A stretch of 64,000 nt of DNA from Thermomicrobiales bacterium. Lineage in GTDB: Bacteria > Chloroflexota > Chloroflexia > Thermomicrobiales > UBA6265. The notes beneath the pieces are model-generated. The model did not search any database, was not told the DNA's origin, and worked only from the letters and a program-made list of their open reading frames with translations. The position numbers were made by a program, and so were the translations under genes. The stretch covers positions 23,597 through 87,596 of the forward strand of contig JAUJOZ010000014.1 in NCBI GenBank assembly GCA_030447415.1. The letters run 5' to 3'. How positions within the stretch are numbered: the stretch's first letter is position 1; every line of letters starts with the position of its first letter. Shown here in pieces: positions 1,272-14,649 of the stretch.

Positions 1272-1287
1272 CTCAGACCGCCGGGGG
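1272..1287. repeat. Left target-site duplication of the 13.3 kb element
   Basis: The 16 bases ctcagaccgccggggg lie directly outside the left terminal inverted repeat. The right flank at 14634-14649 reads ctcagaccggcggggg, in the same orientation, with one mismatch. Because the sequence ends in a G run, the exact length could be off by a base or two. Its size fits the 14-15 bp duplications known for casposases. Confidence 0.75.
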
Positions 1288-1330
1288 GGGTATAGTGTCA
1301 AGTCTGAAATTGCCTCGATTTTGGGAATAC
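1288..1330 (+). repeat. Left terminal inverted repeat
   Basis: The repeat starts gggtatagtgtcaagt, then has a short variable stretch, then attgcctcgatt and tgggaa. It matches the reverse complement of 14591-14633 at 37 of 43 positions, including two unbroken blocks of 13 (gggtatagtgtca) and 10 (tgcctcgatt) bases. On the opposite strand it contains TTGACA pointing outward, which could supply a -35 box to the neighbouring gene. Confidence 0.8.
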
Positions 1331-1473
1331 TCGGCGGTCGCGGCGTCGCACGGGGCTGGCGAGCTGCGGGGCCGTCGCCGAAGTGGTGCGGCGGCCCACG
1401 TGTCCCTGATGGCGAAGGATTTGACCTCTTGAGTCCCCTTGGCGGTGAACCAGCCCGTGGCCTAGCGCCAATG

Positions 1474-2769
1474 CTAAGGATGCGACCAGTTCTTCGCACC
1501 GTCAGCGGGGACGAAGTGGTCCCAGCCTTCCGTTGATCCGGGGAAACCCGTCGGTGGATCGGCACCGTCATAGAACCACTGGTCGGGTGGCTTCGCGCCA
1601 GCGCCGATGGCGAAGACCCAGCCGCTGACCGTCCTGCGCCAGGCATACCAGGCTTGCCCGTCGCTCCGAACCTCCATGACGATCCCGTGTTCTTTGGGCA
1701 GTCCCCTCGACGAGAAGTCCTCGAGGCGTTCGAGCAGATCCGGGCGATAACGGCCCCCATGGTTGCGATACCAGCCCATCTGGCACGTGGCCAGCCAGCG
1801 CAGCGCCTCCTTTGTCTCGGCGAACTCCCGTTGGTCGAGCCGCTTGCCTTCCGCGTCTGTGCCGTTCACGCCGGCGTAGTGCTTCAACTGGTCCTGCCGT
1901 TCCTGTTCTTCGAGCCGATGCTCAACTCGGTGTTGGCGAAATGCGCGAACTCGCTCAAGAGAGCTGTGGAAGCCCGGTGCCTCCGCTATCTGCCGCACCC
2001 AGCCCCCGGTGAAGGCATTGACGTCTCGCACGTGCCAATTCAAACCGAGAAGGATGGCCGCGCGCGTCTTGAGGCTCACCCTCCGCCCGCGGTTGGCAAA
2101 TCCCAGGCGCATGAACGCGACTTCATAGCTAGCGATGAAGGCGAAGACATAGACGAAGGGGAGCGCGGCAACTGGAAGCCACACAGTCATGGCAAATGAG
2201 CGCCACAGGGTGCCAAGGTCCAGTTCATGGCGCTGTCGGTAGATCTCCACCGCGGTGAGCATGACAAGCGCAGCAACCATGCCGGCCAACAACCATTCAA
2301 AGAGTCGTTTTGACCGCGCCAGCTGCTCATCTCGTTCCGCCATAATTGGCGCCGCCACGAGAACTGCCATGACGGGGAGGAGTACGAGTTCCACGACGAG
2401 GCTGAAGGTGACGATGTTGAGAAAGAAACTGAGAATGGCGCTAGCCTCCAGCGTCGAGCGGATCGTGTCCCGCACGTAGCGGTCGTCTTCAGCCGCTCGG
2501 TTGGCATTCACTAGCAGGACCAAGCCCGTGACGACGAACCAGATAACCGTGTCTTTCAGCAGGTTCCGCTCCCACAATCCCACCTCGGCAGCGAGCCACA
2601 CCCACGCGGCCAACCACCCTACGAACAGGATCAGCGGAACGACGATCTTAACCTTGAAGAAGGCACGTGCAACGGAGGAAAACGACGCCCGTACGTCAGC
2701 CTTGATTGACACGAAGATCAGGAGCACGACGAGCCACACGATGGTTGCAATATCGCGATTGGTGATCAC
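1474..2769 (-). CDS. Multi-pass membrane protein of unknown function inside the element
   Basis: This 431-residue protein has a GTG start. I see about six hydrophobic segments in the first 230 residues: two close to the N-terminus, a pair around 75-135, then 160-175 and 195-220. A charged, Arg/Glu-rich stretch around residues 270-320 (for example HRLEEQERQDQ) is probably helical and cytoplasmic. A Trp-rich C-terminal tail of about 60 residues follows (YAWRR, WVFAIGAGA, WFYDG). I do not recognise the family. It is the gene closest to the left inverted repeat and reads toward it, so it is probably cargo of the element. Lower GC in its 5' half suggests a different origin from its neighbours. Confidence 0.65.
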   Translation of the reverse strand: MITNRDIATIVWLVVLLIFVSIKADVRASFSSVARAFFKVKIVVPLILFVGWLAAWVWLAAEVGLWERNLLKDTVIWFVVTGLVLLVNANRAAEDDRYVRDTIRSTLEASAILSFFLNIVTFSLVVELVLLPVMAVLVAAPIMAERDEQLARSKRLFEWLLAGMVAALVMLTAVEIYRQRHELDLGTLWRSFAMTVWLPVAALPFVYVFAFIASYEVAFMRLGFANRGRRVSLKTRAAILLGLNWHVRDVNAFTGGWVRQIAEAPGFHSSLERVRAFRQHRVEHRLEEQERQDQLKHYAGVNGTDAEGKRLDQREFAETKEALRWLATCQMGWYRNHGGRYRPDLLERLEDFSSRGLPKEHGIVMEVRSDGQAWYAWRRTVSGWVFAIGAGAKPPDQWFYDGADPPTGFPGSTEGWDHFVPADGAKNWSHP

Positions 2770-2994
2770 GGGATTATCTCAACCGCACTCTATCCCGGCA
2801 GCCGAAGTTCTCCGCGGAAGGCCTTGATAGACTCGCCGAGGCAAACACGCGTCCTATACGTTCACCCCTTCGGCATTATACGGGGGCGAGGACGTGCGCG
2901 GATGACATCCAGCACCAGTCAGTCCGCCCGCGACTGCAGGGACTCCATCAGAATCCTAGATAAACCCGTGCGGCTGCCAGCGGCACATGCCAGG

Positions 2995-3009
2995 TGCTCA
3001 ATCTGAGCA
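2995..3009. promoter_or_regulatory. 15-bp palindrome matching one inside parB
   Basis: The site tgctcaatctgagca has 6-bp arms around a 3-bp centre. It differs by one central base from the palindrome at 8655-8669 inside the ParB-like gene of the same element. It lies in the 272-bp gene-free gap 2770-3041, just downstream of the polymerase/HTH gene. A ParB-binding (parS-like) or regulator-binding site is plausible. Nothing else was recognised in this gap. Confidence 0.45.
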
Positions 3010-3041
3010 ATAGCCTACGTCATCACTGCGTCATCGGTGGC

Positions 3042-4517
3042 TCACATCGAACTCAACGGTTGGGCTACCAGTGCCGCCTCCAGCTTAGCCAGCATCGCTC
3101 GACTCGGCCGCCGTCGCCCGGACAACACTTCGGTTAGATGCGGGTAGTGGACGCCCGCCATGGCGGCGAACCGCCGCACGCTTAGCCCCCGGCTCCGCGC
3201 CCGCACCCCCTGCAGCACGGCTCGCTCGTGCTCGGCCCGTTGCCGCTTTGCTGCCTCCAGCCGGGGTATTGCCCGTGCCAGTTTCATGCGAGTTGCCTGC
3301 GTCGGCTGCCGTTCGCCCCGGAGGATTGCTCCCACCTCCCGCGCGGAAACGCCGGCCACCTCCGCCAGCGCCCGTTGCCCGAACCTCCGCCCGGCTCGCA
3401 GCAAGGTGCCGCGCAACCGCTCCCGGTCCTCGGGCGTCGTGCCGTAGACGATCTGCGCCTCGGGGTCCTCGCCCAGATACAGCTGCTCCTCCCAGCGGTT
3501 GGCCTCCTTGCCGATGTGCTCGACGGCGACGCGCCGCAGGCGAACCTCGGCGCGGCCGCCGTAGTAGGTGCTGAGGATGCTACCCAGCAGCTCGGGAGGA
3601 AAGTCCGGCTGCAGCTCCCTCCACGGCCGCACCCCCATCTCGCGCAGGCAGGCCTTGCCGAGGCTCGCCTCGCTGTAGATCCGCGTGAGCGGCGTCCGGG
3701 TCAGCCCATACCCGTCGTAACGGTCGCGCAACCGCTCGAAGCACTCCCAGGTCACCTGCACGTCGTTCGTGGCGTAGTCCAAGTACTCGTCGGTCAGCAT
3801 GCCGCCGTGCTCGTCGGCGTCCTGCTTGCGGTGCGCGGTCCGGAGGTGGTCGGCCAGGGCCTTGAGGGTCCAGGAACCGCCGAGCAGCGCCCCGGCGAGG
3901 GTGCGCACGTCGGCGACGTGGCCGCGCTGGGCCGGCACCCGCAGGCCGCGCCGGCGCATCCCCCGCGGCGTGTCCTGGCCGCGCGGCTTGGCGAACTGGA
4001 TCAACGCCGCGCGGCCGGTGAGGTGCTTGACCTGCACCCGCGGCCGCCGGTCGTCCTCGCTCAGCCGGAAGGAGAAGCCGCCGCGCATAGAGCCACGCGC
4101 TGGGGCATGGTGGATCGCCAAGCGCGCCAGGTCGAAGGGGAGGTTCAAGCCGACGCACAGACCGCCCAGGTCGTAGGCGTAGGGAAAGAAAACCTCTTCC
4201 ACGAACTCCTCGACGGTGCGGACAGCGAAACCGTGGTCGCTGGCGTAGCCGTAGAGCGTTGACCGTTCCGCGTCGGCGAGGCAGAGCGGGTCGTAGAAGA
4301 GGCCGGCCTCCCGCAGCTCGCCCGCCTGCCGCACCTGGTAGGCCCCGATCCGGAGCTGCTGGGCGGCGTCGGCCGTCGTCTCCGTGTCGAAGACGAGCGC
4401 CCAGCCCGAGGGTGGGGGCGGCTCGGTTCCATCTCGCCTCGGCGGTGATTGAATGCCCCCAGTCGGCTCGGCATAGGCGCGGACGGCGATGGGTCGGGGT
4501 TCCGGCGACGGGATCAT
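3042..4517 (-). CDS. Family-B polymerase-like exonuclease with HTH tail, polymerase domain missing
   Basis: This 491-residue protein starts at the ATG that overlaps the HNH gene stop in an ATGA tetranucleotide, which decides the start. Residues 42-47 (VFDTET) carry the Asp-x-Glu of a DEDD exonuclease Exo I motif. GLNLPFDLARLA fits Exo II and YATNDVQVTWECF fits Exo III. The segment SLGKACLREMG followed by STYYGGRAEVRLRR is the usual lead-in to the polymerase domain of viral/plasmid/casposon-type PolB. The polymerase motifs (DxxSLYP, DTDS) do not follow. Instead the protein jumps to VEHIGKEANRWEEQ and two helix-turn-helix segments (about residues 385-430 and 445-490). Exonuclease activity is plausible; DNA synthesis is not, as the gene is written. 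It may be an internal deletion or a collapsed assembly. Confidence 0.7.
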   Translation of the reverse strand: MIPSPEPRPIAVRAYAEPTGGIQSPPRRDGTEPPPPSGWALVFDTETTADAAQQLRIGAYQVRQAGELREAGLFYDPLCLADAERSTLYGYASDHGFAVRTVEEFVEEVFFPYAYDLGGLCVGLNLPFDLARLAIHHAPARGSMRGGFSFRLSEDDRRPRVQVKHLTGRAALIQFAKPRGQDTPRGMRRRGLRVPAQRGHVADVRTLAGALLGGSWTLKALADHLRTAHRKQDADEHGGMLTDEYLDYATNDVQVTWECFERLRDRYDGYGLTRTPLTRIYSEASLGKACLREMGVRPWRELQPDFPPELLGSILSTYYGGRAEVRLRRVAVEHIGKEANRWEEQLYLGEDPEAQIVYGTTPEDRERLRGTLLRAGRRFGQRALAEVAGVSAREVGAILRGERQPTQATRMKLARAIPRLEAAKRQRAEHERAVLQGVRARSRGLSVRRFAAMAGVHYPHLTEVLSGRRRPSRAMLAKLEAALVAQPLSSM

Positions 4518-4897
4518 GTTGCGCCCCCCGGTGCCGCCTGCCGACCGTAGGGACGCGGGCAGACCCGAGCCCCCGCCAGCAGCTCCTCGCCGAAGGCCTT
4601 GAGCTTCGCCGCCAGCATCAGGAGCAGGGCGGCGAGCCCGAGCAGGAACCGCCCGATGCGCTCCAAGGTGGGCGGATCGGCTGGCGCCTCGCCGTTGGCG
4701 CTCGGGTCGGACTGCTTGCGGTGGCAGTTGCGGCAAAGGATGACCGTGGTTCCGTCGTACGCGCGCCCGGCCAGGTGATGCCGTTCTAGACACCGCCAGT
4801 CATCCTCGCCGCAGGTCGCGCATTGCGGCCGGTCGGTGCCGAGACGCTGCGCCGCGCGGCGTTTGCGGCGTTCCCGTTCGAGGTCGTGTGCGTCCAC
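4514..4897 (-). CDS. HNH endonuclease, copy 1
   Basis: This 127-residue protein has the HNH core CATCGEDDWRCLERHHLAG, then YDGTTVILCRNCHRKQSD. The HH pair is the catalytic motif, and the two CxxC pairs (CATC and CRNC) bind structural zinc. The C-terminal part has one hydrophobic helix (FLLGLAALLLMLAAKL), unusual for a nuclease. Its stop overlaps the start of the exonuclease gene by ATGA, so the two are translationally coupled. HNH genes next to PolB and Cas1 are typical of casposons. Its role there is unproven, and it may aid excision or act as a homing-type nuclease. Confidence 0.8.
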   Translation of the reverse strand: MDAHDLERERRKRRAAQRLGTDRPQCATCGEDDWRCLERHHLAGRAYDGTTVILCRNCHRKQSDPSANGEAPADPPTLERIGRFLLGLAALLLMLAAKLKAFGEELLAGARVCPRPYGRQAAPGGAT

Positions 4898-4912
4898 GGT
4901 GGTGATTCCTCC

Positions 4913-5407
4913 TCAGGCGACGATCCGGTAGACCTGCTCGAACGATTCGGCCGGCGCGACGGTCAGGCGGTAGAGCACGTTCGGTCGGGTCTCGAAGACG
5001 TGGCGCTTGCCCTTGACGTCGGTGACCGACTCGCCGACGAACGGGGCCAGATTGGCCGGGTCGTTGCTGTCACGGAACGCGCGCACCGCCGCCATATAGC
5101 GGCCGATCAGCGCGGCTGGCTCGTAGCCGGCGACCGTGATCGCCACGGCCCGGCCCCGGCTGTAGACCGGCAGCTCGCGCGGCCGCGGGTCGTGGCCGAC
5201 CGCCCAGCGGCCGCCGCGCTTTTCGACGACGCCGGTCTGCCCGACGTAGCGGCGCATCCGCTCGGGCGCGACGCCGATCGAGGCTGCCGCCGCGGTTAGC
5301 GACCGCCCGCCGCGGATCGCCTTCAGGCCGGCTTCCAGCCGCGGGTCGTAGGCGGGCGTGGCGCCGCGGCCGGAGACGGAGGGCTCGCCGGGGCGTGGGT
5401 GGCCGCG
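4913..5407 (-). CDS. Gene A copy 1, unknown, N-terminus cut by duplication
   Basis: The frame is open from the duplication junction (about 5407) to the stop at 4913, about 165 residues. The complete version in copy 2 starts MMAAQRDYRAEYARRIERGL and would be about 200 residues. The visible part has an Ala-rich, HTH-like stretch (SLTAAAASIGVAPERMRRYVG), then a more mixed domain ending ESFEQVYRIVA. An internal ATG at 5257 could still start a 114-residue product. It lies 15 bp upstream of the HNH gene on the same strand, so it should be co-transcribed. I do not recognise the family; DNA binding is a guess from the HTH-like segment. Confidence 0.55.
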   Translation of the reverse strand, partial: RGHPRPGEPSVSGRGATPAYDPRLEAGLKAIRGGRSLTAAAASIGVAPERMRRYVGQTGVVEKRGGRWAVGHDPRPRELPVYSRGRAVAITVAGYEPAALIGRYMAAVRAFRDSNDPANLAPFVGESVTDVKGKRHVFETRPNVLYRLTVAPAESFEQVYRIVA

Positions 5408-5434
5408 GGCACCCGGCTCACCAGCCGTCGCAGG

Positions 5435-6414
5435 TGAACCTCGGCGCGGCCGCCGTAGTAGGTGCTGAGGATGCTACCCAGCAGCTCGGCCGGCAAGTCC
5501 GGCTGCAGCTCCTCGCCACGGCCGGATGCCCATCTCGCGCAGGCAGGCCTTGCCGAGGCTCGCCTCGAGTAGATGCGATCGACGGATGTCTGGGTCAGCC
5601 CATACCCGTCGTAACGGTCGCGCAAGCGCTCGAAGCACTCCCAGGTCACCTGCACGTCGTTCGTGGCGTAGTCCAAGTACTCGTCGGTCAGCATGCCGCC
5701 GTGCTCGTCGGCGTCCTGCTTGCGATGCTGCGTTTGCAGGTGATCGGCCAGATGCCTTGAGGGTCCAGGAACCGCCCAGCAGCGCCCCGGCGGGATCGAA
5801 CATCGGCGACGTGGCCGCGCCACGCCTGAACGCGCAGGCCGCGCCGGCGCATGCCCCGCGGCGTGTCCTGGCCGCGCGGTACGGTGAACTGGATCAGGGC
5901 GCCGCGCGACCGGTCAGGTGCTTCACCTGGATACGCGGCCGCCGTTTGTCCTCGCTCAGCCGGAAACTGAAGCCGCCGTGCATGGTTCGCCCTCGCGCTG
6001 GGGCATGGTGGATCGCCAAGCGCGCCAGATCGAAGGGGAGATTCAAGCCGATACAGGTTCCGCGCAGATCGAACAGATAGGGCAAGAAAACCTCTTCGAT
6101 GAACTCCTCGACGGTGCGGACGGTGAAACCGTGATCGCTGGCGTAGCCGTAGAGGGTTGACCGTTCCGCGTCGTCGAGGCAGAGCGGATCGTAGAACAGC
6201 CCGGCCTCCCGTAGGTCGTCCCCCTGCCGCACCTGGTAGGCCCCGAATCGCAGCTGCTGGGCGGCGTCAATCGTCGTCTCGATATCGAAGACGAGCGCCC
6301 ACGCCGAGGGTGGGGGCGGCTGTTCCATCTTCCGCCTCGGCGGTGATTGACGCGCTGCGTCGGCTCGGCATAGGCGCGGGTGGCGATGGGTCGCGGTTCG
6401 GGCGACGGGATCAT
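5435..6414 (-). pseudogene. Exonuclease/PolB-like gene copy 2, frameshifted and truncated
   Basis: It is homologous to the gene at 3042-4517. It keeps VFDIETT (Exo I), GLNLPFDLARLA (Exo II) and YATNDVQVTWECF (Exo III), but these lie in different frames. The shifts fall near 6340, 5905, 5790-5750 and 5570. It ends at GGRAEVHLRR, the same point at which copy 1 departs from the polymerase family, and has neither polymerase domain nor HTH tail. It is either a decaying paralogue or an intact gene with sequencing indels; the truncation at the duplication join is real in this sequence. Confidence 0.65.
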
Positions 6415-6792
6415 GTTGCGCCCCCGGTGCCGCCTGCCGACCGTAGGGACGCGGGCAGACCCGCGATCCCGCCAGCAGGTCCTCGCCGAAGGCCTTGAGC
6501 TTCGCCGCCAGCATCAGGAACAGGGCGGCGAGCCCGAGCAGGAACCGCCCGATGCGCTCCAAGGTGGGCGGATCGCTGGGGGCGTCGGCGTTGTCGCTGG
6601 GATCGGACTGTTTGCGGTGGCAGTTGCGGCAGAGAATGACCGTGGTTCCGTCGTACGCGCGCCCGGCGAGGTGGTGCCGTTCGAGGCAGCGCCAGTCATC
6701 CTCGCCGCAGGTGCGCATTGCGGCCGGTCGGTGCCAAGGCGCTGCAGGCCGCGCGGTTTGCGGCGTTCCGCGTCGGGTTCGTGGCTGATCAT
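6411..6792 (-). pseudogene. HNH endonuclease copy 2, frameshifted
   Basis: It starts MISHEPDAERRK and matches copy 1 through LGTDRPQCA. It then shifts frame near 6715 and continues CGEDDWRCLERHHLAG and ILCRNCHRKQSD. The catalytic HH and zinc cysteines are therefore all encoded. A missing C in the run near 6425 alters the last residues. Conservative changes from copy 1 (for example SDNADAPSD for SANGEAPAD) show real divergence under selection. The frame breaks may be sequencing errors. Confidence 0.6.
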
Positions 6793-6807
6793 GGTGGTGC
6801 TTTCTCC

Positions 6808-7390
6808 TCAGGCGACGATGCGATAGACCTGCTCGAACGATTCCCCCGCCCGGCGGCGAGGCGGTAGAGCACGTTCGGTCGGGTCTCGAAGGACGTGGCG
6901 CTTGCCCTTGACGTCGGTGACGGCCTCGCCGACGAACGGATCGAGATAGGCGGGGTCGTTGCTGTCGAGGAACGCGCGCACCGCCGCCAGGTAGCGGCCC
7001 GCCTGCGCCGCCGGCTCGTAGCCGGCGACCGTGATCGTCACGTTCTCGGCCCCGGCTGAAGACCGGCAGCTCGCGCGGGCGCGGGTCGTGGCCGACCGCC
7101 CAGCGCCCGCCGCGCTTCTCGACGACGCCGGTCTGGACGACGTAGCGGCGCATCCGCTCGGGCGCGACGCCGATGGAGGCTGCCGCCGCGTCAGCGACGT
7201 GCCCTGCCGGATCGCCTTCAGGCCGGCTTCCAGCCGCGGGTCGTAGGCGGGCGTCGCCGCCTCTGCGGGAGACGGAGGCCTCGCCGGGGCGTGGGTGGCC
7301 GCGCGCCTGGCTGCGGCTGAGGCCCCGTTCCAGCCCCCGCTCGATGCGCCGGGCGTACTCGGCCCGGTAGTCGCGCTGCGCCGCCATCAT
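6808..7390 (-). pseudogene. Gene A copy 2, full length but frameshifted
   Basis: It starts MMAAQRDYRAEYARRIERGL. Its GTG/ATG region overlaps a short preceding frame by ATGA, which suggests coupling to the Mom-like gene upstream. The frame breaks near 7262, 7192, 7050 and 6870, while the encoded segments (MRRYVVQTGVVEKRGG, VTITVAGYEPAAQ, ESFEQVYRIVA) still match copy 1. The N-terminus is rich in Arg and Tyr and probably helical. The function is unknown. Confidence 0.55.
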
Positions 7391-7469
7391 CCGTCACCCT
7401 TCGACGCCGGCGGGCTGGCCGCGGCCGGGGCTGGGCCGGCGTGCGGTTGTGGTAGAGTGGGCATCGGAT

Positions 7470-8294
7470 TCACCATTCTTTCCCGGTTGGACCGGCGGCG
7501 AGGGGCAAGCTCACCGCCGGTTCTGTTTGTCTCGGTCCGAACCCTGGCGGGTTGCGGGGAGGTCCTGGTGGCCCCCGGCTCGGCGGTCGCGGGTAGGGCC
7601 GCCCGGCGCCGCGCAGCCGCCAGCGCCAGGCCGGGTCGAGGACGTAGGTGTAGCGATGCTTGCCGCCGACTGCCTCCCGCCGCGCCGCCACCCCGGTCGC
7701 CCGCAGGTGCCCAATCCGGTTGCTCCCGAACTCGGTGAAGACGCTGCGGGGGTGGTGCAGCCGGCCGTCGGCCAGCCGGACGTAGGTTTCGCCTCCGGTC
7801 TCGCCGAGGTAGAGCCAACCGGTTGCCTGGTAGACCGTGCCGACGTGACCGGCGGCCGGGTCGGCATAGGAGAGGACCAGCTTCCAGGGGGTGGTCCGGC
7901 GCAGTTCCCGCAGGACGATGCCCAGCACCCGGCTCTCGCTGTTGGGGGGCAGGGCGTCGCTCAGCCACAACCGCGCCAGGGTGGCCACATCCTGAGGGCG
8001 CGCGCCGGCCAGGAGGCGGTGGGCCTGGCGGGCGCCGCTGGTGAAGACAACCCCGCCGAGCAAGCGGTCATCGAGGTAGATACCGTAGCAGCGCCGGGGC
8101 GCGGCGGGCATGGCATGGAGGTAGTGGTGCGCCTCGACCAGCGGGCGGACGATCGCGGGCGGGACCGGGCGCACGACGAGCGCCTTGGGGGTGGAGCGCG
8201 AGGGTCGGGCTTGCACCGCCGTCTCCCCGGTGGAATCCGGGGCGTCCTCCTCGTTGGACGACTCGCGCGTGGGTGGTGGCGGCTCGGGCTTCAT
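7470..8294 (-). CDS. Mom-like DNA-modification protein (GNAT-related)
   Basis: This 274-residue protein starts at an ATG that overlaps the parB-like stop (ATGA), so translation is coupled. Residues about 45-230 resemble the phage Mu Mom family. They include HHYLHAMPAAPRRCYGIY, then GGVVFTSG, LARLWLSDALPPNSESRVLG, LSYADPAAGHVGTVYQATGW and a C-terminal RYTYVLDP. Mom proteins add a carbamoylmethyl-type group to adenines and protect phage DNA from restriction. By analogy this would shield the element during transfer, but the exact modification cannot be read from sequence. The last 45 residues are Pro/Arg-rich and may be out of frame, since the family normally ends near the YVLDPAW motif. Confidence 0.7.
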   Translation of the reverse strand: MKPEPPPPTRESSNEEDAPDSTGETAVQARPSRSTPKALVVRPVPPAIVRPLVEAHHYLHAMPAAPRRCYGIYLDDRLLGGVVFTSGARQAHRLLAGARPQDVATLARLWLSDALPPNSESRVLGIVLRELRRTTPWKLVLSYADPAAGHVGTVYQATGWLYLGETGGETYVRLADGRLHHPRSVFTEFGSNRIGHLRATGVAARREAVGGKHRYTYVLDPAWRWRLRGAGRPYPRPPSRGPPGPPRNPPGFGPRQTEPAVSLPLAAGPTGKEW

Positions 8295-9106
8295 TCGCTC
8301 GGCTCCGCGTCGTCGTAACCGAGGGCGACCGCCACGTCGAGCACGTTGCGGCTGGTCCACCCCAGCCGCTCACCCAGCTCGGCCGCCCGCTCCTCACCCA
8401 GCACGAGGCGGCACGCCTCAGCGGCCGTTGCCCAGCCCTCCAGGCCGTCCTGGTCTTCGAGGGCGACGGCCAGCCGCTGCAGGTACTGGGCGATCCGGCG
8501 CTGCCGGCGGCGCTCGTCTGAGGTGAACAGCCGGCCGACGGCGCCGCCGACCAGTTCGCCCAGGCCCGGGTCGGGAAGGTCGCCGAGGGGGCGCGCCTTG
8601 GGGTTGGTGCCGACGGCGTAGGGGTAGCCGCCCCGGCCGACCCGCGTCTCGGTCTGCTCAATTTGAGCAGCTTGTTCCAGGCGGGCGCGGACGGCGCCCA
8701 CCGTGTTCCCCGCGAGGCCGCAGCGGCGGCCGATCTCGCGGTCGGCCCAGTCCGGGTGCGCCCGGAGCAGGCGCGCGGCTTCCGCTCGCCGGTCGTCAAG
8801 CGTCAGCTCGCGGCCGTGGACCGCGTTGAGGGCGAAGGCCAGCGCGTGCAGGTCGCCGTCCGCCGGGGGATCGAGCACCCGGACCGGGACGGTCGCCAGG
8901 TCGAGGTTCTGGGCGGCGGCGAAGCGGTGCCGCCCATCTACGAGGACGCACCGGTTGCCCTGCCGCACGCCGACGAGTGGCGGCCAACTCGCGGCGACGT
9001 CCTCCAGCGCCCGGACGTAGGCCTCGTCCAGCCCGGCGACGCGGGGCTGGAGGTCCGGGACGACCACGATCCGGTCGAGCGGCAGGTCGTAGATCTCGGT
9101 CGTCAT
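8291..9106 (-). CDS. ParB-like nuclease/partition-domain protein
   Basis: This 271-residue protein has an N-terminal ParB/sulfiredoxin-like domain. IVVVPDLQPR and VLVDGRHRFAAAQNLDLATVPVRV correspond to the family's substrate/nucleotide-binding loop (G-R-H-R). An HTH follows around residues 115-145 (DREIGRRCGLAGNTVGAVRARLEQ). The C-terminal half is unrecognised. A very strong ribosome site (GGAGGTGA) precedes the ATG, and a 19-bp perfect palindrome lies 12 bp upstream of the start. It heads the leftward operon (parB-like, mom-like, gene A, HNH, exonuclease). Such proteins may partition plasmids or act as regulators in phages; a regulatory role fits a single-copy element. Confidence 0.75.
   Translation of the reverse strand: MTTEIYDLPLDRIVVVPDLQPRVAGLDEAYVRALEDVAASWPPLVGVRQGNRCVLVDGRHRFAAAQNLDLATVPVRVLDPPADGDLHALAFALNAVHGRELTLDDRRAEAARLLRAHPDWADREIGRRCGLAGNTVGAVRARLEQAAQIEQTETRVGRGGYPYAVGTNPKARPLGDLPDPGLGELVGGAVGRLFTSDERRRQRRIAQYLQRLAVALEDQDGLEGWATAAEACRLVLGEERAAELGERLGWTSRNVLDVAVALGYDDAEPSE
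8655..8669. promoter_or_regulatory. Palindrome inside parB-like gene
   Basis: The bases tgctcaatttgagca form a perfect palindrome around a central base, extending to 17 bp at 8654-8670. They are nearly identical to the palindrome at 2995-3009. ParB binding sites are often found within or near parB genes, so it is a candidate parS-like site. A chance origin from the codons for Gln-Ile-Glu-Gln cannot be excluded. Confidence 0.4.
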
Positions 9107-9118
9107 GGGTCACCTCCG

Positions 9119-9137
9119 AGCGAAGACCGTCTTCGCT
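9119..9137. promoter_or_regulatory. 19-bp perfect palindrome in divergent promoter region
   Basis: The sequence agcgaagac-c-gtcttcgct has perfect 9-bp arms. It lies between the leftward parB-like gene (start 9106) and the rightward MerR-like/cas1 genes (first start 9213). Its position suggests an operator through which one regulator controls both arms of the element. The MerR-like protein encoded next door is the obvious candidate binder. Confidence 0.5.
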
Positions 9138-9212
9138 GCCGCCAGGGTAGGATCGACCGCGCACCCGTGCCGGACGCTTGACAAATCCCACATGTTGAGG
9201 GAGCCTCGGGGC

Positions 9213-10124
9213 ATGGACGTGCGGGACGAGGCGACCATCACGACCGACGCGCTGCTGGGGCGTCTGGGGCGGCGGGGGCTGCGGGTGACGCGGACGATGC
9301 TCGCCCAGGACGTGCGGGCCGGGTACCTCCCGCCCCCCACGAAAGCGCCGCGGGGGCCGCGGCGGGGCATCGGGCGCCTCTGGGAACCGTGGGCGGTGCG
9401 CCGGGCGATCTACCTCTACCGCCTGCGGCGGCGGGGGGTGCAGGGCGACCTGCTGCGAGTGCTGCTCTTCTTCCACGACGGCCGGGGCTGGGAGGCCGTC
9501 AGGCCGGTCTGTCTGGCCGGGCTGGCCAAGCTCGTCCGCGTCCAGGCGAGCCCGGTCGCGCGGCGCCTGCGCCGGGCCACGCCGACGAACGTGGACCTCT
9601 TCGCCGACGAGTTCGCCGCGGGGGTGTTCACCTCGCCTGCGGTGGCCCGGTTCGTCTGGGGGGTGGGCCTGTTCGGACGGCCACTGGCCGGTGGGTCGCT
9701 GCTCCCCTTCTCCGAGGCGTTCCGGACGACGTTGGACGCCGACACCTCCGACGAGCAGGACTGGGCGGCCGAGCGGCTCGTCGCAGCCTCAGGACTTACG
9801 TGGGACCGGGCGCTGGCGACGGTCGAGGCGACGGACGCGGCCGGGGCCGACGCGGCCCGCCGCGAGTTCCTGGCTTGGGTCCGCTGGTTCCGCGGCCTCT
9901 ACCACGCCTACCTGCAGGGGCACGGCCACCGGGGGCGGTCGAGCAACCCGCTGACGCTGTTCGGCTGCCCCCCGGAGCAGCTCCACGCCCTGTGCCGCTC
10001 GCTGCCGGGGCGGCCCACCCCGGCGCAATTGCTGGCCGTCCTGCTGGTGCCGTTCCTGGTCCTGGAAGGGCTGCGCTGGACCGGTGAGCTGCCGGAGACG
10101 GAGGAGGCGCCCAAACCGCCCTGA
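9213..10124 (+). CDS. MerR-like DNA-binding protein of the element
   Basis: The ATG at 9213 is chosen because GAGGGAG lies 9 bases upstream; an in-frame ATG at 9192 is possible. The 303-residue product begins with a winged-helix/MerR-like segment (TDALLGRLGRRGLRVTRTMLAQDVRAGYLPPPTK, then WEPWAVRRAIYLYRLRRRGV). A mostly helical domain of about 220 residues follows that I do not recognise. It lies 46 bp upstream of cas1 on the same strand and is divergent from the parB-like operon. It is probably a regulator or DNA-binding partner of the Cas1 integrase; only the N-terminal DNA-binding part is supported by sequence. Confidence 0.6.
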   Translation: MDVRDEATITTDALLGRLGRRGLRVTRTMLAQDVRAGYLPPPTKAPRGPRRGIGRLWEPWAVRRAIYLYRLRRRGVQGDLLRVLLFFHDGRGWEAVRPVCLAGLAKLVRVQASPVARRLRRATPTNVDLFADEFAAGVFTSPAVARFVWGVGLFGRPLAGGSLLPFSEAFRTTLDADTSDEQDWAAERLVAASGLTWDRALATVEATDAAGADAARREFLAWVRWFRGLYHAYLQGHGHRGRSSNPLTLFGCPPEQLHALCRSLPGRPTPAQLLAVLLVPFLVLEGLRWTGELPETEEAPKPP

Positions 10125-10170
10125 GCGGTCGGCGGTCGAGGGGCGCGGCACACGAGGAGGGAAGCCCCGC

Positions 10171-11658
10171 GTGCAGGACGTGGGTACCGTGGTCGAGACG
10201 ACCGAACCGGGGACATGCGCGGGCTGCGGGGCCAGCCTCGACGGGCGGCCGCGCTCGCAGCGGTTCTGCTCTCGCCCCTGCTACCAACGGTGGTGGGCCG
10301 CGAACCGGCAGCGCGAGGTGGCCGCCCGCGGCAGCCGGAAGCTGGCCGACCTCCAAGCGGCCGGGCAGGATCCGCGCTCCGTGGGTGAAACTGCCCAACG
10401 TCGCAGCGCCGCCATCGCTGAGAGCAATCGGCGCACCCCGCGGCGCCGCAAGCGGGAAGGGACGTCGCCGGCAGAGTCGCCCAGATCGCCGGTGTTTCAC
10501 CTCCTCCCACCATCGGCTTCATCCGACGCCGAGACGGGGCCGCTCGACGATGACGCCGACGACCTCGCGTGGGCGGAGCGGGGTCGGTACTGGGAGGGCG
10601 AAGCCAAGCGGTCGACCCCACGGCGGCAAGGGCGGGGCAAACAGGTGGTGCCGGCCCCGTTGGTGCTGACCGGCCACGGGGTGCGGCTGCAGCTCCACAA
10701 CGGCGCCTTGGTGGTCCGCGACGGCTCCACCCACCACCCGCAGCCGCGGCGGGAGCGGCGGCTATTCCTCGGTGACCGCGACCTCCCCTCCCGCGTCGTC
10801 GTCCTCGACGGCGACGGCGCACTCTCCCTCGATGTGGTCGCCTGGCTGGGTCGGCAAGGCATTCCACTGGTGCTGCTCGACTGGCAGGGGGAGGTTGCCG
10901 GCGTGCTCGGCGACGGAGCAGCCTCGGACCCGGCGCTACGGTCGGCGCAGCTGGCGGCGCGAACCAATGGCGTCGGGTTGGGGCTGGCGACGCGCCTGAT
11001 CCGCGAGAAGGTGGCCTCCAGTTTGGAGACGCTGCGGACACTGCCGCCGTCGCTGGGAAGGGACGCGGCCCGGCGCAAGCTGGAGGTAGCGCTGACGGAA
11101 TTGGAGCGGTGGCCGCCGGCGACGGTGGAGGGCCTGCGGCTGATCGAGGGGCGGGCGGCGCTGGCCTACTTCGGCTGCTGGCAGGCGCTGCCGATCCGGT
11201 GGAAGGGGACAGGGCGAAAACCCATCCCTCCTGATTGGCACCGCATCGGCCTACGGCATTCGTTGGTGAGCGGCAGCAATCGCCACGCCACCCACCCCAT
11301 GAACGCGATCCTCAACTACGCCTACGCCGTGCTGGAGGGGCAGGTGCGGACCGCGGCGGCCGCGGCTGGGCTCGACCCGACGGTCGGCTACGCGCACGCC
11401 TGCCACCCGGGGCGGGCGGCGCTGGTCTACGACCTGATGGAGCCGCTGCGCCCGCGGGCGGACCGGCTGGTGCTCGACTTCGTCCGCAGGCACACGTTCG
11501 CGCCGAGTGACGTTGTCCTGACGGAGCAGGGCGTCTGCCGGCTCCACCCACAGCTGGCTCGGAGCGTAGCCGGGCTGGCCGTGGGCGACGCAGCCGTGCA
11601 GGAAGTGGTCGCCGCGACCGTGCGGGAACTGGCGGGAGGAGGAGCATGGGAGTGCTGA
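10171..11658 (+). CDS. cas1: Cas1 homologue (casposase-type integrase) with zinc-finger extension
   Basis: The GTG start at 10171 follows GAGGAGGG by about 9 bases. The 495-residue product has a Cys4 finger (about residues 14-40: CAGC then CSRPC) and a basic/acidic linker. A complete Cas1 fold begins near residue 165. VRLQLHNGALVV and RVVVLDGDGALSLDVVAWLG fit the beta-rich N-domain. The helical domain has the catalytic residues Glu326 (LIEGRAALAYF), His409 (GYAHACHP) and Asp421 (VYDLMEPLRP), plus the HPMNAILNYAYAVLE motif. Cas1 joins DNA ends to a target with staggered strand transfer; in casposons it is the transposase. No cas2 or CRISPR array lies nearby, which supports this role. The zinc-finger extension is unusual and may recognise the inverted repeats. 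Confidence 0.9.
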   Translation: MQDVGTVVETTEPGTCAGCGASLDGRPRSQRFCSRPCYQRWWAANRQREVAARGSRKLADLQAAGQDPRSVGETAQRRSAAIAESNRRTPRRRKREGTSPAESPRSPVFHLLPPSASSDAETGPLDDDADDLAWAERGRYWEGEAKRSTPRRQGRGKQVVPAPLVLTGHGVRLQLHNGALVVRDGSTHHPQPRRERRLFLGDRDLPSRVVVLDGDGALSLDVVAWLGRQGIPLVLLDWQGEVAGVLGDGAASDPALRSAQLAARTNGVGLGLATRLIREKVASSLETLRTLPPSLGRDAARRKLEVALTELERWPPATVEGLRLIEGRAALAYFGCWQALPIRWKGTGRKPIPPDWHRIGLRHSLVSGSNRHATHPMNAILNYAYAVLEGQVRTAAAAAGLDPTVGYAHACHPGRAALVYDLMEPLRPRADRLVLDFVRRHTFAPSDVVLTEQGVCRLHPQLARSVAGLAVGDAAVQEVVAATVRELAGGGAWEC

Positions 11659-11879
11659 GTGCGTCGGTTAGTCGTGTGACGGGAAACGTCACCGAGGTGC
11701 GACGTCGCGTACCCTTCCTGGTGGCCGACCGTGAGCCCTGTTTGCGACCAGTCGGATGATGTTCAATCGGTGGAGGATGCATCGGTGGGCATTGCCATCG
11801 CGACGTATGTGTTCAAGCTTGGTGACGGTACTATATTACCGGATGCTACAAGTTGGAACACGCAGAGGCAGAGCGATCG

Positions 11880-14163
11880 ATGACCGAGCGTGCTGAGGCC
11901 AGCTGCGACGACCGGGAGGCCGATCTCCGGCAACGCCTAAGCCAGGGCGAGCCGCTTCGATTCGATCCGCCCGCAGCAGAAGGCCCTGAACCACCCGAAG
12001 CGCGCGCGGCGGACTATCCCCGCGGCCTGGCTGCGGTCGCTGGTGCAGGACTGCACCGCGACCCTGCCCTGCCCGATCGAGATCGCCCACGCGGTCATCG
12101 ACGGACCGCTCGACCTGCGCCACGTCACGTTCGCCGCGGAATGCTCGATCACCGATTCGGAGTTCGACGGCGACGTCGACCTCGGGTTCGCCTCCTTCAA
12201 CGCCGGGTTACGGATCGACCGATCGGGGTTCCAACGGCGCGCGAACCTCCGCGCCGCCGAGGTATTGGGCGATGTTACCGCGACAAGGGCACGTTGCGCG
12301 GCGGCATCGTCCTCGACGACCTGAAGGTGCGTTGGTCTTGGATGCGTCGGGGGCAACGTTTGGCGACGCCGCCGAGTGTCGCCGGATGGACATCACCAAG
12401 GACGTCCTGTTCGGGTGCGGTCTTCAGGGTAACGCCCACTTCAACAATGGACATTTTCGTGGCGTCACGAAGTTTCGGGACGCGCGGTTCGGGGACAGGC
12501 CGATTTCGACGAAACCCAGATAGACGCGTCCGCCTACTTCAACTCTGAGGCGGGGGAGAGCGTGTTCGAAGGGCCGTAAGCTTCAACGTGCCCGATTTGG
12601 AGCCGGAGCTAGCTTTCGGGGGCGCAGTTCAAGGGGGATGCCAGCTTCCAGCGGGTGGCGATCGCTGGACCGGCCTTCTTCGAGCCGGACGACCGGGACA
12701 ACCCAGTCGTCTTCGAGCAGGGCGCGGATTTCTTCGCCGCCAGGATTGGGGGTCGAGGTCGCTTCTTTGGGGCGCAGTTCAAGGGGCCGGCCCACTTCGC
12801 GTCCGTCCAGATCGACAAGGACGCCTTCTTCTGTGCCGACGCCCAGGGCAACCGGACCACCTTCGAGGGCGAGGCCGACTTCGCGGCCGCCCACGTCGGG
12901 GGCAGCGCCGAGTTCGGCGGGGCGCAGTTCAAGGGGCCGGCCCACTTCGCCGACGCCCGGATCGACCGGGACGCCTTCTTCGCCGCCGACGCCCAGGGCC
13001 ACCCGGTCGCCTTCGAGGACCTGGCGAACTTCGTCGACGCCCGCGTCGGGGCCAACGCCGTCCTCCGCGGGGCGCAGTTCCAGGGGCCGGCGGTCTTCGC
13101 CAACGCGCAGATCGATCGGGACGCCAACTTCCGCGCCGACGACCGGGGCAACCACGTCGATTTCGCTCAATTTGCGTCGTTCGAGGGCACCCGCTTCCAG
13201 GGGCACACGGACTTCGCCCACGCGCGCTTCGCCACGGATGTTCGGTTCGGGAGCGCCCGGTTCGGCATGGATGCGAGGTTCGACGACGTCGCCTTCGGTG
13301 GAGCCGCAGACTTCGCGGCGGCGGTGGCACTCCAGGACGTGCACTTCCCGGCAGCGGTGTTTCGCCGTGGCGCGACGTTTCGCGAGGCCAAAGTCCGCGT
13401 CGCCCATTTCTGCGAAGACGTCGTGGGGCCGCCCCGGTGGCCCTGGTCGACGCTCCGCGAAGCCGCCCGACCGGTCGTCGGCGCCGCGCAACGGTTGAGG
13501 CGCAGGCCGCGCCAGGCCGCCCCGGAACCGCAGTTTGGCGGCGACGTCGACCTGCGCGGCTTCTCCTACGAGCGGATCTACGTGGACTGGGACGCGTTCC
13601 TCGGCAAACTGGCCCCGTACGACCGCCAGCCGTACACCGAGATGGAGGCGGCCTTCCGCCGGATGGGCGACGACCGGGGCGCCAACGACGTCTACTACGA
13701 GCGGCGGCTACGGGAGTCCCGGATCCGGCGGAGGTGGCGGCACCGCAGCGAATGGCCGCGCCTGCTGCTGGTCGACCTGCCCCACCGGGGCCTGGCCGGT
13801 TACGGGGTGCGGGCGCTCCGGTTCCTGGCGGTGGTGGCCGCCGTGCTCGTGATCGGCACGTTCGTCTTCGGGCAGGTCGACGCGGTGGCGTACCGCAGCG
13901 AGGCGGATCGCCAAGCGTCCGGCGGGCGGCCCGTTGACTTGGACGGCGCCCACGCCTTCTTGGTCAGCCTCGACCAGTTGCTCCCCTCCCCGGTCGACGT
14001 CCCCGGCGGGCGGCGCTGGGAGCCGAGCAGCCACGAATGGTGGGAGGTGCGCGGCGTCTCGCTCTCCTACGCCGACTACGCCTCCGTCCCGAACCTCGTC
14101 GGGTGGGTGCTCGTGCCCGTCGGCATCGCCATCCTCGCCGGCGCGCTGCGCCGGCAGACCTAG
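11880..14163 (+). CDS. Large pentapeptide-repeat membrane protein, frameshifted
   Basis: It starts at the ATG at 11880 (MTERAEASCDDREADLRQRL). Homologous segments run to 14163 but change frame several times before 12655 (near 12015, 12280, 12330, 12500 and 12590). After that the frame stays open. The middle is a pentapeptide-type beta-helix with Phe at the repeat positions. A 50-residue super-repeat (GAQFKGPAHF... to the next GAQFKGPAHF) occurs about three times between 12770 and 13180. The C-terminal quarter has a helical DYDRQPYTEMEAAFRRMGDD-like region, a membrane segment (LRFLAVVAAVLVIGTFVFG) and another at the very end. The reconstructed length is about 760 residues. It is cargo near the right inverted repeat; the function is unknown. 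Confidence 0.65.
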
Positions 14164-14332
14164 CCGCGAGCCGTGTTCCCGGCCGGGGAAGCACTGGGGA
14201 GCGCTTCCCGAGGCCCCCTAGGCCACCGACCGCCGTCGGTCGGGCTACCACGGACAATCGTGCGCCGGTGGGACGGGTGCGCGCCGCGCCGAGCCGTAAT
14301 CGGTGCGTGGCTGACCTGGCGGCGACCGCGGA

Positions 14333-14356
14333 CGTTCCCAACATCGAGGCACGCAC
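14333..14356 (-). repeat. Partial subterminal repeat
   Basis: On the minus strand this reads gcctcgatgttgggaacgtc. It matches the inner half of the right terminal inverted repeat (tgcctcgattctgggaacatc), while the outer tatagtgtca half is absent. It is the innermost of three related copies on the right end of the element. Confidence 0.5.
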
Positions 14357-14447
14357 GGGTGGGACCGGCGGGGCGCCATCGGCAGGGCAACGCGGCCTAT
14401 CGGGGCTGAGCCTCGCCGAACGCGTGGCCGACCGCCCGGGTCGCCGG

Positions 14448-14490
14448 GTGTTCCCGCGAACGAGGCAATCGTGGATTTGACACTATCCCG
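14448..14490 (-). repeat. Subterminal copy of the terminal repeat
   Basis: The minus strand reads gatagtgtca, a variable stretch, tgcctcgt, then gggaacac. About 29 of 40 bases match the right terminal repeat 143 bp away, in the same orientation. Repeated end motifs of this type are often binding sites for the element's integrase or repressor. Confidence 0.6.
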
Positions 14491-14590
14491 CAGCGATCCC
14501 ACCCAGCGCAGCCCCGACTCCGCTGACGGGCAATTTTCCGCCGGCCACCATCGGCGACCAGCGGGCGACACCGGCCAGCCTGAGCGGCGG

Positions 14591-14633
14591 ATGTTCCCAG
14601 AATCGAGGCAATCTCCAACTTGACACTATACCC
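14591..14633 (-). repeat. Right terminal inverted repeat
   Basis: Its reverse complement (gggtatagtgtcaagttggagattgcctcg in two blocks) matches the left repeat at 37 of 43 positions. The outer end carries TTGACA directed outward. It marks the right boundary of the 13.3 kb element. Confidence 0.8.
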
Positions 14634-14649
14634 CTCAGACCGGCGGGGG
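14634..14649. repeat. Right target-site duplication
   Basis: The 16 bases ctcagaccggcggggg directly abut the right inverted repeat. They repeat the left flank at 1272-1287 with one mismatch. Joining the flanks at this sequence would restore one intergenic region between the CAP-protein gene and murI. Nothing further was recognised between here and murI except a 7-bp hairpin at about 14727-14747. Confidence 0.75.

Follow-up and report, generated by a model that had tools for sequence, protein, structure and literature searches.

Does a cas1 gene lying between inverted repeats in a bacterial genome mark a casposon, and what becomes of such an element when its polymerase gene is damaged? This question is raised by a 13,348-bp element at positions 1287-14634 of a 64,000-nucleotide stretch of DNA (the window) from a Thermomicrobiales-related bacterium. 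A first-pass annotation, made from the sequence, proposed a bacterial casposon or a close relative in a Chloroflexota genome. Both proposals held up. The host is corroborated by a genome of the same family (G027), one contig of which is identical to a public contig of "Thermomicrobiales bacterium YPbin5". The ends, a 14-bp duplication and the HNH, helix-turn-helix (HTH) and PolB neighbours match bacterial casposons, and the Cas1 falls in a casposon-linked clade. The element very probably belongs to the bacterial (family 3) branch of the casposons and is moved by Cas1; its polymerase domain has been lost. Casposons are the proposed ancestors of the adaptation machinery of clustered regularly interspaced short palindromic repeat (CRISPR) systems.

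The inverted repeats, put at 43 bp in the first-pass annotation, were measured as 53 nt with 83% complementarity (1287-1339 and 14582-14634). The first 17 nt of the two ends are identical (GGGGTATAGTGTCAAGT). Comparison of the regions flanking the two ends gave a top inverted-repeat score of 29, whereas none of 200 pairs simulated with a Markov-1 model scored above 17. A direct duplication flanks the ends, as had been claimed, yet its length is best read as 14 bp rather than 16: TCAGACCGCCGGGG and TCAGACCGGCGGGG match at 13 of 14 positions. This similarity was reached by 9 of 1,999,067 random 14-mer pairs of the window. Terminal inverted repeats and a target-site duplication of about 14-15 bp, both expected of a casposon, are present in the element. 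Its G+C content is about that of the rest of the window (0.702 and 0.703). A second right-end-like sequence, located 145 bp inside the outer right end, is probably what is left of a nested or tandem insertion.

The Cas1 frame is full length, and residues 193-494 match Cas_Cas1 (PF01867) with 141.5 bits. The predicted Cas1 homologue was thus confirmed; the catalytic residues, earlier given as a Glu/His/Asp triad, are read as E355, H438 and E453. H438 and E453 align inside a stretch of the Methanosarcina mazei casposase that holds H232 and E247, which are active-site residues of that enzyme (PMC6977970). We infer from this alignment the numbering offset that links the two pairs. The protein is intact by sequence and, from its catalytic residues, may catalyse integration of the ends. 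Four cysteines in the N-terminal region recall the zinc-binding domain that NitAL212-C1 carries at the N-terminus of its Cas1 (PMC4046053). The predicted structure (mean predicted local distance difference test score, pLDDT, 74.1) has its best fold match in the M. mazei casposase (6opm), with the Cas1 of A. fulgidus close behind.

Placing this Cas1 in a tree with CRISPR Cas1s, as the first-pass annotation had advised, put it on the casposon-linked side. Among 50 rows, 27 casposon-like Cas1s, the window's included, form one side of a branch with a value of 100 in the Shimodaira-Hasegawa-like approximate likelihood ratio test (SH-aLRT), apart from the cas2-linked Cas1s. Among the 23 rows on the other side are six Cas1s from plasmids with an annotated cas2, Cas1s of the window's class whatever their neighbouring genes, and four of the 33 scan loci described below (L094 and L096-L098). 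The gene lies outside CRISPR loci and, in this tree of Cas1s other than archaeal casposases, in the casposase clade. The nearest Cas1 of the tree belongs to an Alphaproteobacteria metagenome-assembled genome (L066, 42%), and the closest by best segment is L067 (62% there). Over 196 codons the window and L067 genes differ at 58/40/100 first, second and third positions (p 6e-7). A PF01867 search of the genome found two Cas1 genes, both of casposon type; Cas2 was not found in the genome, which is 86% complete. Of the two parts expected in a CRISPR-Cas adaptation module, a Cas1 from a CRISPR clade and a cas2, neither was found.

The first-pass annotation listed "PolB-type exonuclease genes" and HNH genes. 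Both kinds are present, but the plural overstates the case: a 1.9-kb tandem duplication (3532-5410 and 5426-7306, 88% identical) repeats the exonuclease, HNH and HTH segments, and copy 2 is frameshifted. The exonuclease domain was also correctly seen; the gene, however, is a B-family polymerase that has lost its whole polymerase domain. The exonuclease, palm and C-terminal regions were modelled separately from 15 full-length PolBs, of which 14 belong to relatives and the remaining one to contig C42 of the same genome. The window gave 240 bits with the exonuclease model and 44 bits with the C-terminal model. The palm model found no match at E ≤ 1 in frames of at least 40 codons across the 64 kb, whereas C42 gives 778 bits. 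The protein retains 31 of 34 near-invariant residues of the exonuclease, among them the D-E, N..FD and Y...D motifs, and its exonuclease site is intact. In fold, the structure predicted for it (mean pLDDT 76.7) resembles the exonuclease regions of PolBs, Pol III epsilon and RNase T; only 2 of the fold matches have E ≤ 0.001.

Because the left boundary of the duplication coincides with the palm-deletion junction, the two events are probably linked. This coincidence of breakpoints, together with a cas1 relic and the extra right end, suggests that the element was partially rebuilt by recombination between casposon copies. Aligned with each other, the tandem copies show 11 gap columns in the exonuclease, 2 in the HNH and 3 in the HTH segment. 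Their differences by codon position are 30/26/63 (p 3e-5), 8/10/23 (p 0.008) and 8/9/18 (p 0.07), respectively, and the ratio of nonsynonymous to synonymous rates (dN/dS) is 0.33-0.39. The copies differ mainly at third positions, and protein-level selection thus acted on them during part of their divergence, be it before or after the palm was lost. Because the PolB gene lost its polymerase domain, the element is probably no longer self-synthesizing, and may be described as a non-self-synthesizing or decaying casposon variant, outside the self-synthesizing class.

The features are collected in the table. The Mom-like and pentapeptide-repeat cargo was found as predicted. The ParB-like call is backed by PHROG matches and the HNH call by weak ones; the HNH protein is also homologous to the one adjoining PolB in 5 relatives. 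ParB-like homologues occur in a second casposon of the same genome (L003 16479-16943 and 17342-17803). None of the five cargo proteins (Mom-like, ParB-like, unknown, pentapeptide, hydrophobic) was found by tblastn at E ≤ 1e-3 in the 33 relatives described below, many of whose contigs are short. The Mom protein of phage Mu modifies DNA against restriction. Outside the element, strongly G-rich and C-rich runs were noticed at 17-210 of the window, just past the 3' end of the CAP gene.

Table. Features of the element and its flanking duplication (window positions)
Feature	Position	Strand	Remarks
Left target-site duplication, TCAGACCGCCGGGG	1273..1286		13/14 identical with right copy
Left terminal inverted repeat, begins GGGGTATAGTGTCAAGT	1287..1339	+	above simulated null
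Protein with hydrophobic segments (judged by eye)	1474..2769	-	no family match at E ≤ 0.01
Relic of second cas1	2898..2990	-	31 residues, 55% identical, contains stop; just downstream of PolB
PolB without polymerase domain, 491 aa	3042..4517	-	3'-5' exonuclease domain, to which the C-terminal IGKE motif and HTH repeats are joined
HNH endonuclease, open copy 1	4514..4897	-	overlaps PolB start (ATGA); weak PHROG HNH matches
Casposon HTH protein, copy 1, 5'-truncated by duplication	4913..5410	-	46% to L066 homologue
Tandem copy 2 of exonuclease-HNH-HTH	5426..7306	-	88% to 3532-5410; frameshifted relative to copy 1
Mom-like DNA modification protein	7470..8360	-	PF25680, 158.9 bits; phrog_1384, 141.7 bits
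ParB-like protein	8291..9106	-	phrog_1033, E 7e-10
Uncharacterised protein, frame overlapping cas1 start	9105..10124	+	without family match
Cas1 (casposase) with N-terminal Cys4 zinc-finger-like domain	10084..11658	+	PF01867, tree, residues, fold
Pentapeptide-repeat protein (cargo)	12655..14163	+	PF13576
Inner right-end-like sequence	14441..14489	-	34/46 identical to outer end
Right terminal inverted repeat	14582..14634	-	
Right target-site duplication, TCAGACCGGCGGGG	14635..14648		13/14 identical with left copy

The second casposon of this genome is complete. The ends of contigs C85 and C42 overlap by 55 bp, and the joined contigs hold a 17,077-bp casposon from C85:79667 to C42:8159 (L003 9668 / L034 8159). 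Its ends are GGGATAAGAGATAC..., and its 14-bp duplication, CTCCCTGCGTTGAC, is perfect, with one copy per contig. Because the copies sit on two different contigs, the join is independently supported. It encodes a Cas1 with a C-terminal zinc finger and HTH, two ParB-like proteins, an HTH protein and a full PolB. It has in common with the window element the casposon gene set with ParB-like proteins and the 14-bp duplication; it differs in its full-length PolB, the C-terminal zinc finger and HTH on Cas1, other ends, and a -35-box target. One bacterium thus carries two different casposon lineages, one complete and one without the polymerase domain. PolB or Cas1 remains were found on contigs C65, C76, C85 and C87, C76 having a related end plus a Cas1 remnant. 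The Cas1 C-terminal region also has matches on C60, C69, C81, C87 and C108. Those at C60:100369-100689, C87:9223-9543 and C108:162317-162577 are zinc-finger/HTH pieces with no Cas1 domain. Such pieces may be relics or separate genes; for some of them the former is probable, and C87 bears PolB remains as well. Within the family, 7 of 32 genomes have PolB matches, the window's own genome included. In G027 two casposon ends lie on different contigs (L022 and L019) with a duplication, CTGTCTTGTTTGAG, matching at 14 of 14 positions.

Relatives were found with an alignment of three Cas1s, which gave 33 loci in genome contigs and 11 in viral contigs; single-protein scans of both sets with the window Cas1 found none. 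The hosts of the 33 loci are Acidobacteria, Chloroflexi, Nitrosomonas, Acidimicrobiia, Gemmatimonadetes and others. A PolB match is present in 21 of them, 14 of which also have HTH and 5 HNH. Since one scan gave these numbers, bacterial casposons are, judged by sequence, not very rare; the first-pass annotation had spoken of few bacterial cases described. PolB lies on the strand opposite Cas1 in 20 of the 21, the exception being L066. The window Cas1 matched 91 plasmid records, of which the 20 listed are all annotated as CRISPR cas1, and it had 3 weak matches in phages, in unannotated records. PolB had no matches in plasmids or viral contigs.

Paired ends with perfect 14-bp duplications were found in 9 of 17 relatives tested (L068, L078, L079, L080, L083, L085, L088, L089, L090). 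L075 has paired ends without a duplication; L066, L072, L073, L074, L082 and L091 gave no acceptable paired ends. In L084 only a 227-nt inverted repeat was found, which was not read as casposon ends. L067 has 139-nt ends beginning GGGGTAT, no duplication, and damaged PolB and Cas1; all accepted ends of relatives, its own included, begin with GGG. PolB lies between the ends in 8 of the 9 relatives with duplications. The exception, L088 (9152-14281), is a 5,080-bp casposon with Cas1 and perfect ends and duplication; no PolB, HNH or HTH match falls between its ends, its PolB match lying outside. Judging from this locus, insertion was evidently possible for a casposon that lacks PolB. Directly after its right duplication a further end-like sequence gives a tandem-like arrangement. 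By eye, end-like sequences were also noticed directly past the duplication in the right flank of L079 and the left flank of L083, which suggests tandem casposon insertions at one site.

The sequence GGGGTATAGTGA lies just upstream of cas1 in L066 and L175. The latter (IMG/VR UViG_3300012268_000167), filed as viral, carries a casposase relative (44%) and is possibly a casposon taken for a virus. The idea that L066 and L175 (each 7752 nt) are one molecule was rejected: the common stretch is only 900 nt at 67%.

Target sites were compared for the nine relatives, G027, the second casposon and the window (12 sites). TTGAC occurs at one duplication edge in 8 of the 12, against 339 of 200,000 random 14-mers of flanking DNA. 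The edge was also scored as a -35 box paired with a -10 box at a distance of 16-18 bp; scores of at least 8 were reached by 9 of the 12 sites (L078, L079, L080, L083, L085, L089, L090, G027 and the second casposon), against 0.45% in a null that mixes coding and intergenic positions. The -10-like box lies on the kept side, 16-18 bp from TTGAC or a variant. Among the TTGAC sites, 5 of 8 had a -10 score of at least 4, compared with 7.4% of 434 TTGAC sites. L068 (p 0.29), L088 (p 0.10) and the window (p 0.88) did not follow the rule; the kept flank of L088 runs into the next end-like sequence. It should be mentioned that the rule was noticed in the very sites scored. A strict search for ends plus an exact 14-bp duplication recovered all 9 known cases and none in 18 further loci, and there is therefore no hold-out set. 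Insertions of the second casposon and most relatives thus appear to sit at sigma70-like -35 boxes; that of the window does not. Such a target resembles the leader-plus-repeat target of CRISPR spacer insertion. It is also comparable to the two-part target of the A. boonei casposase, which needs the first two bases of the duplication and, 9-15 bp upstream of it, a motif (PMC6614799).

Several points weigh against a Cas1-moved casposon of family 3. The tree lacks archaeal casposases (families 1, 2 and 4), and two loci from Nitrosomonas, one in N. communis with both ends and one in a metagenome-assembled genome, serve as its anchors for family 3. L066, with the nearest Cas1, has PolB-HNH-HTH and Cas1 on the same strand, unlike the window. 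The PolB gene that defines the self-synthesizing class is here present with its polymerase domain deleted. With one mismatch in the duplication and only 83% identity between the ends, the insertion may be old. Neither an empty site nor a second identical copy, either of which would point to recent movement, was found. The empty site was sought in the family genomes by murI, CAP-protein and joined-flank searches: murI matched in 20 of 32 (own included) and the CAP protein in 23 of 32. Searched to about 1.5 kb on either side of murI, or less where a contig ended, none of the 19 other murI-positive genomes showed CAP. A rival reading is an immobile, decaying casposon, in which the palm deletion, the frameshifts of copy 2 and the cas1 relic are decay stages and Cas1 has stayed open by luck, the genome being GC-rich. 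The imperfect ends and duplication and the other relics in the genome agree with it, and we regard it as a serious possibility, somewhat short of probable. It is countered by the full-length Cas1 with its catalytic residues, by L088 as an inserted casposon without PolB, and by the third-position bias against L067, though that selection may predate insertion.

The palm-less PolB might instead have been kept as a 3'-5' exonuclease with DNA-binding repeats, trimming casposon ends for Cas1. Trimming of the DnaQ/Cas4 type occurs in CRISPR adaptation. The retained exonuclease residues, the open frame of copy 1, the third-position differences with dN/dS of about 0.33, and the resemblance of the predicted model to PolB exonuclease domains, Pol III epsilon and RNase T would fit such remodelling. 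It is nevertheless unlikely: the copies could have diverged before the palm loss, the search gave no second element that is palm-less yet intact in other respects, L067 as the closest relative being damaged too, and only 2 fold matches reach E ≤ 0.001. Slightly less likely still is a broader proposal, in which a casposon lineage turned its polymerase into a stand-alone end-preparing exonuclease and, with Mom/ParB-like anti-restriction cargo, became a Cas1 transposon spreading without self-copying; if true, this would be a transposon-side counterpart of prespacer trimming. A CRISPR-type Cas1 in a defence island, with repeats by chance, could explain the match to TIGR00287 (112.4 bits; cut-off 71.7) and the A. 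fulgidus fold being nearly as close as the casposase. The separate clade, the ends exceeding the simulated null, the PolB-linked relatives, and the lack of a notable PADLOC match besides Cas1 among the eight proteins scanned make it extremely improbable. It was rejected on the tree, the gene neighbours and the absence of Cas2 matches in the 86% complete genome.

For the casposon of family 3 lineage, the following course can be proposed from known casposases and the anatomy of the element. The GGGGTATAG... ends would be bound by Cas1, perhaps with help from the HNH and HTH proteins, and joined to a target cut with a 14-bp stagger, from which the flanking duplication would arise. Copying by its own polymerase would no longer be possible; because of this loss, movement, if any, would be Cas1-only cut-and-paste or would depend on host or in-trans replication. 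By analogy with phage Mu, the Mom-like protein might modify DNA against restriction. The window element and the 5-kb PolB-less L088 make the need of PolB for casposon mobility testable.

In the literature searched, as far as its text was available, the experimentally characterised casposons are archaeal, and no Mom-carrying casposon and no -35-box targeting were found. Nor was a Chloroflexota casposon, though the hosts of ten hot-spring casposases (PMC9755687 supplement) may include one. Those "Family 5" casposases, mostly without PolB, were proposed as non-self-replicating Cas1 transposons and sit near subtype I-A Cas1 (PMC9755687); the window Cas1 groups with family 3-like loci, and its PolB gene is present with the palm missing. 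The A. boonei casposase makes 14-15-bp duplications, and five terminal end residues are critical for incorporation (PMC6614799). MetMaz-C1 of M. mazei, with the end GGGATATAGG and a 14-bp duplication (PMC10359463), resembles the window element in an end starting with GGGATATAG, the duplication length and the E/H/E active site. It differs in belonging to family 2, in the HTH on the Cas1 C-terminus, in its tRNA-Leu target and in the presence of a polymerase gene (PMC10359463, PMC6977970). Family 3 includes NitAL212-C1 (Nitrosomonas sp. AL212) and AceAut-C1 (Krupovic 2014, PMC4046053), and the median duplication over all casposons is 15 bp in that account. Unlike its members as described there, the window element has a deleted polymerase domain, a 1.9-kb tandem duplication, Mom-like, ParB-like and pentapeptide cargo, and a Chloroflexota-type host. 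HNH, HTH and a zinc-finger-fused Cas1 in a bacterium, the marks of family 3, are all found; the assignment is a grouping with Nitrosomonas loci, not a tree of all families. With family 3 as set out in PMC4046053 the window element shares a Cas1 with a fused zinc-binding domain, HNH, HTH, PolB, inverted ends, duplications and a bacterial host.

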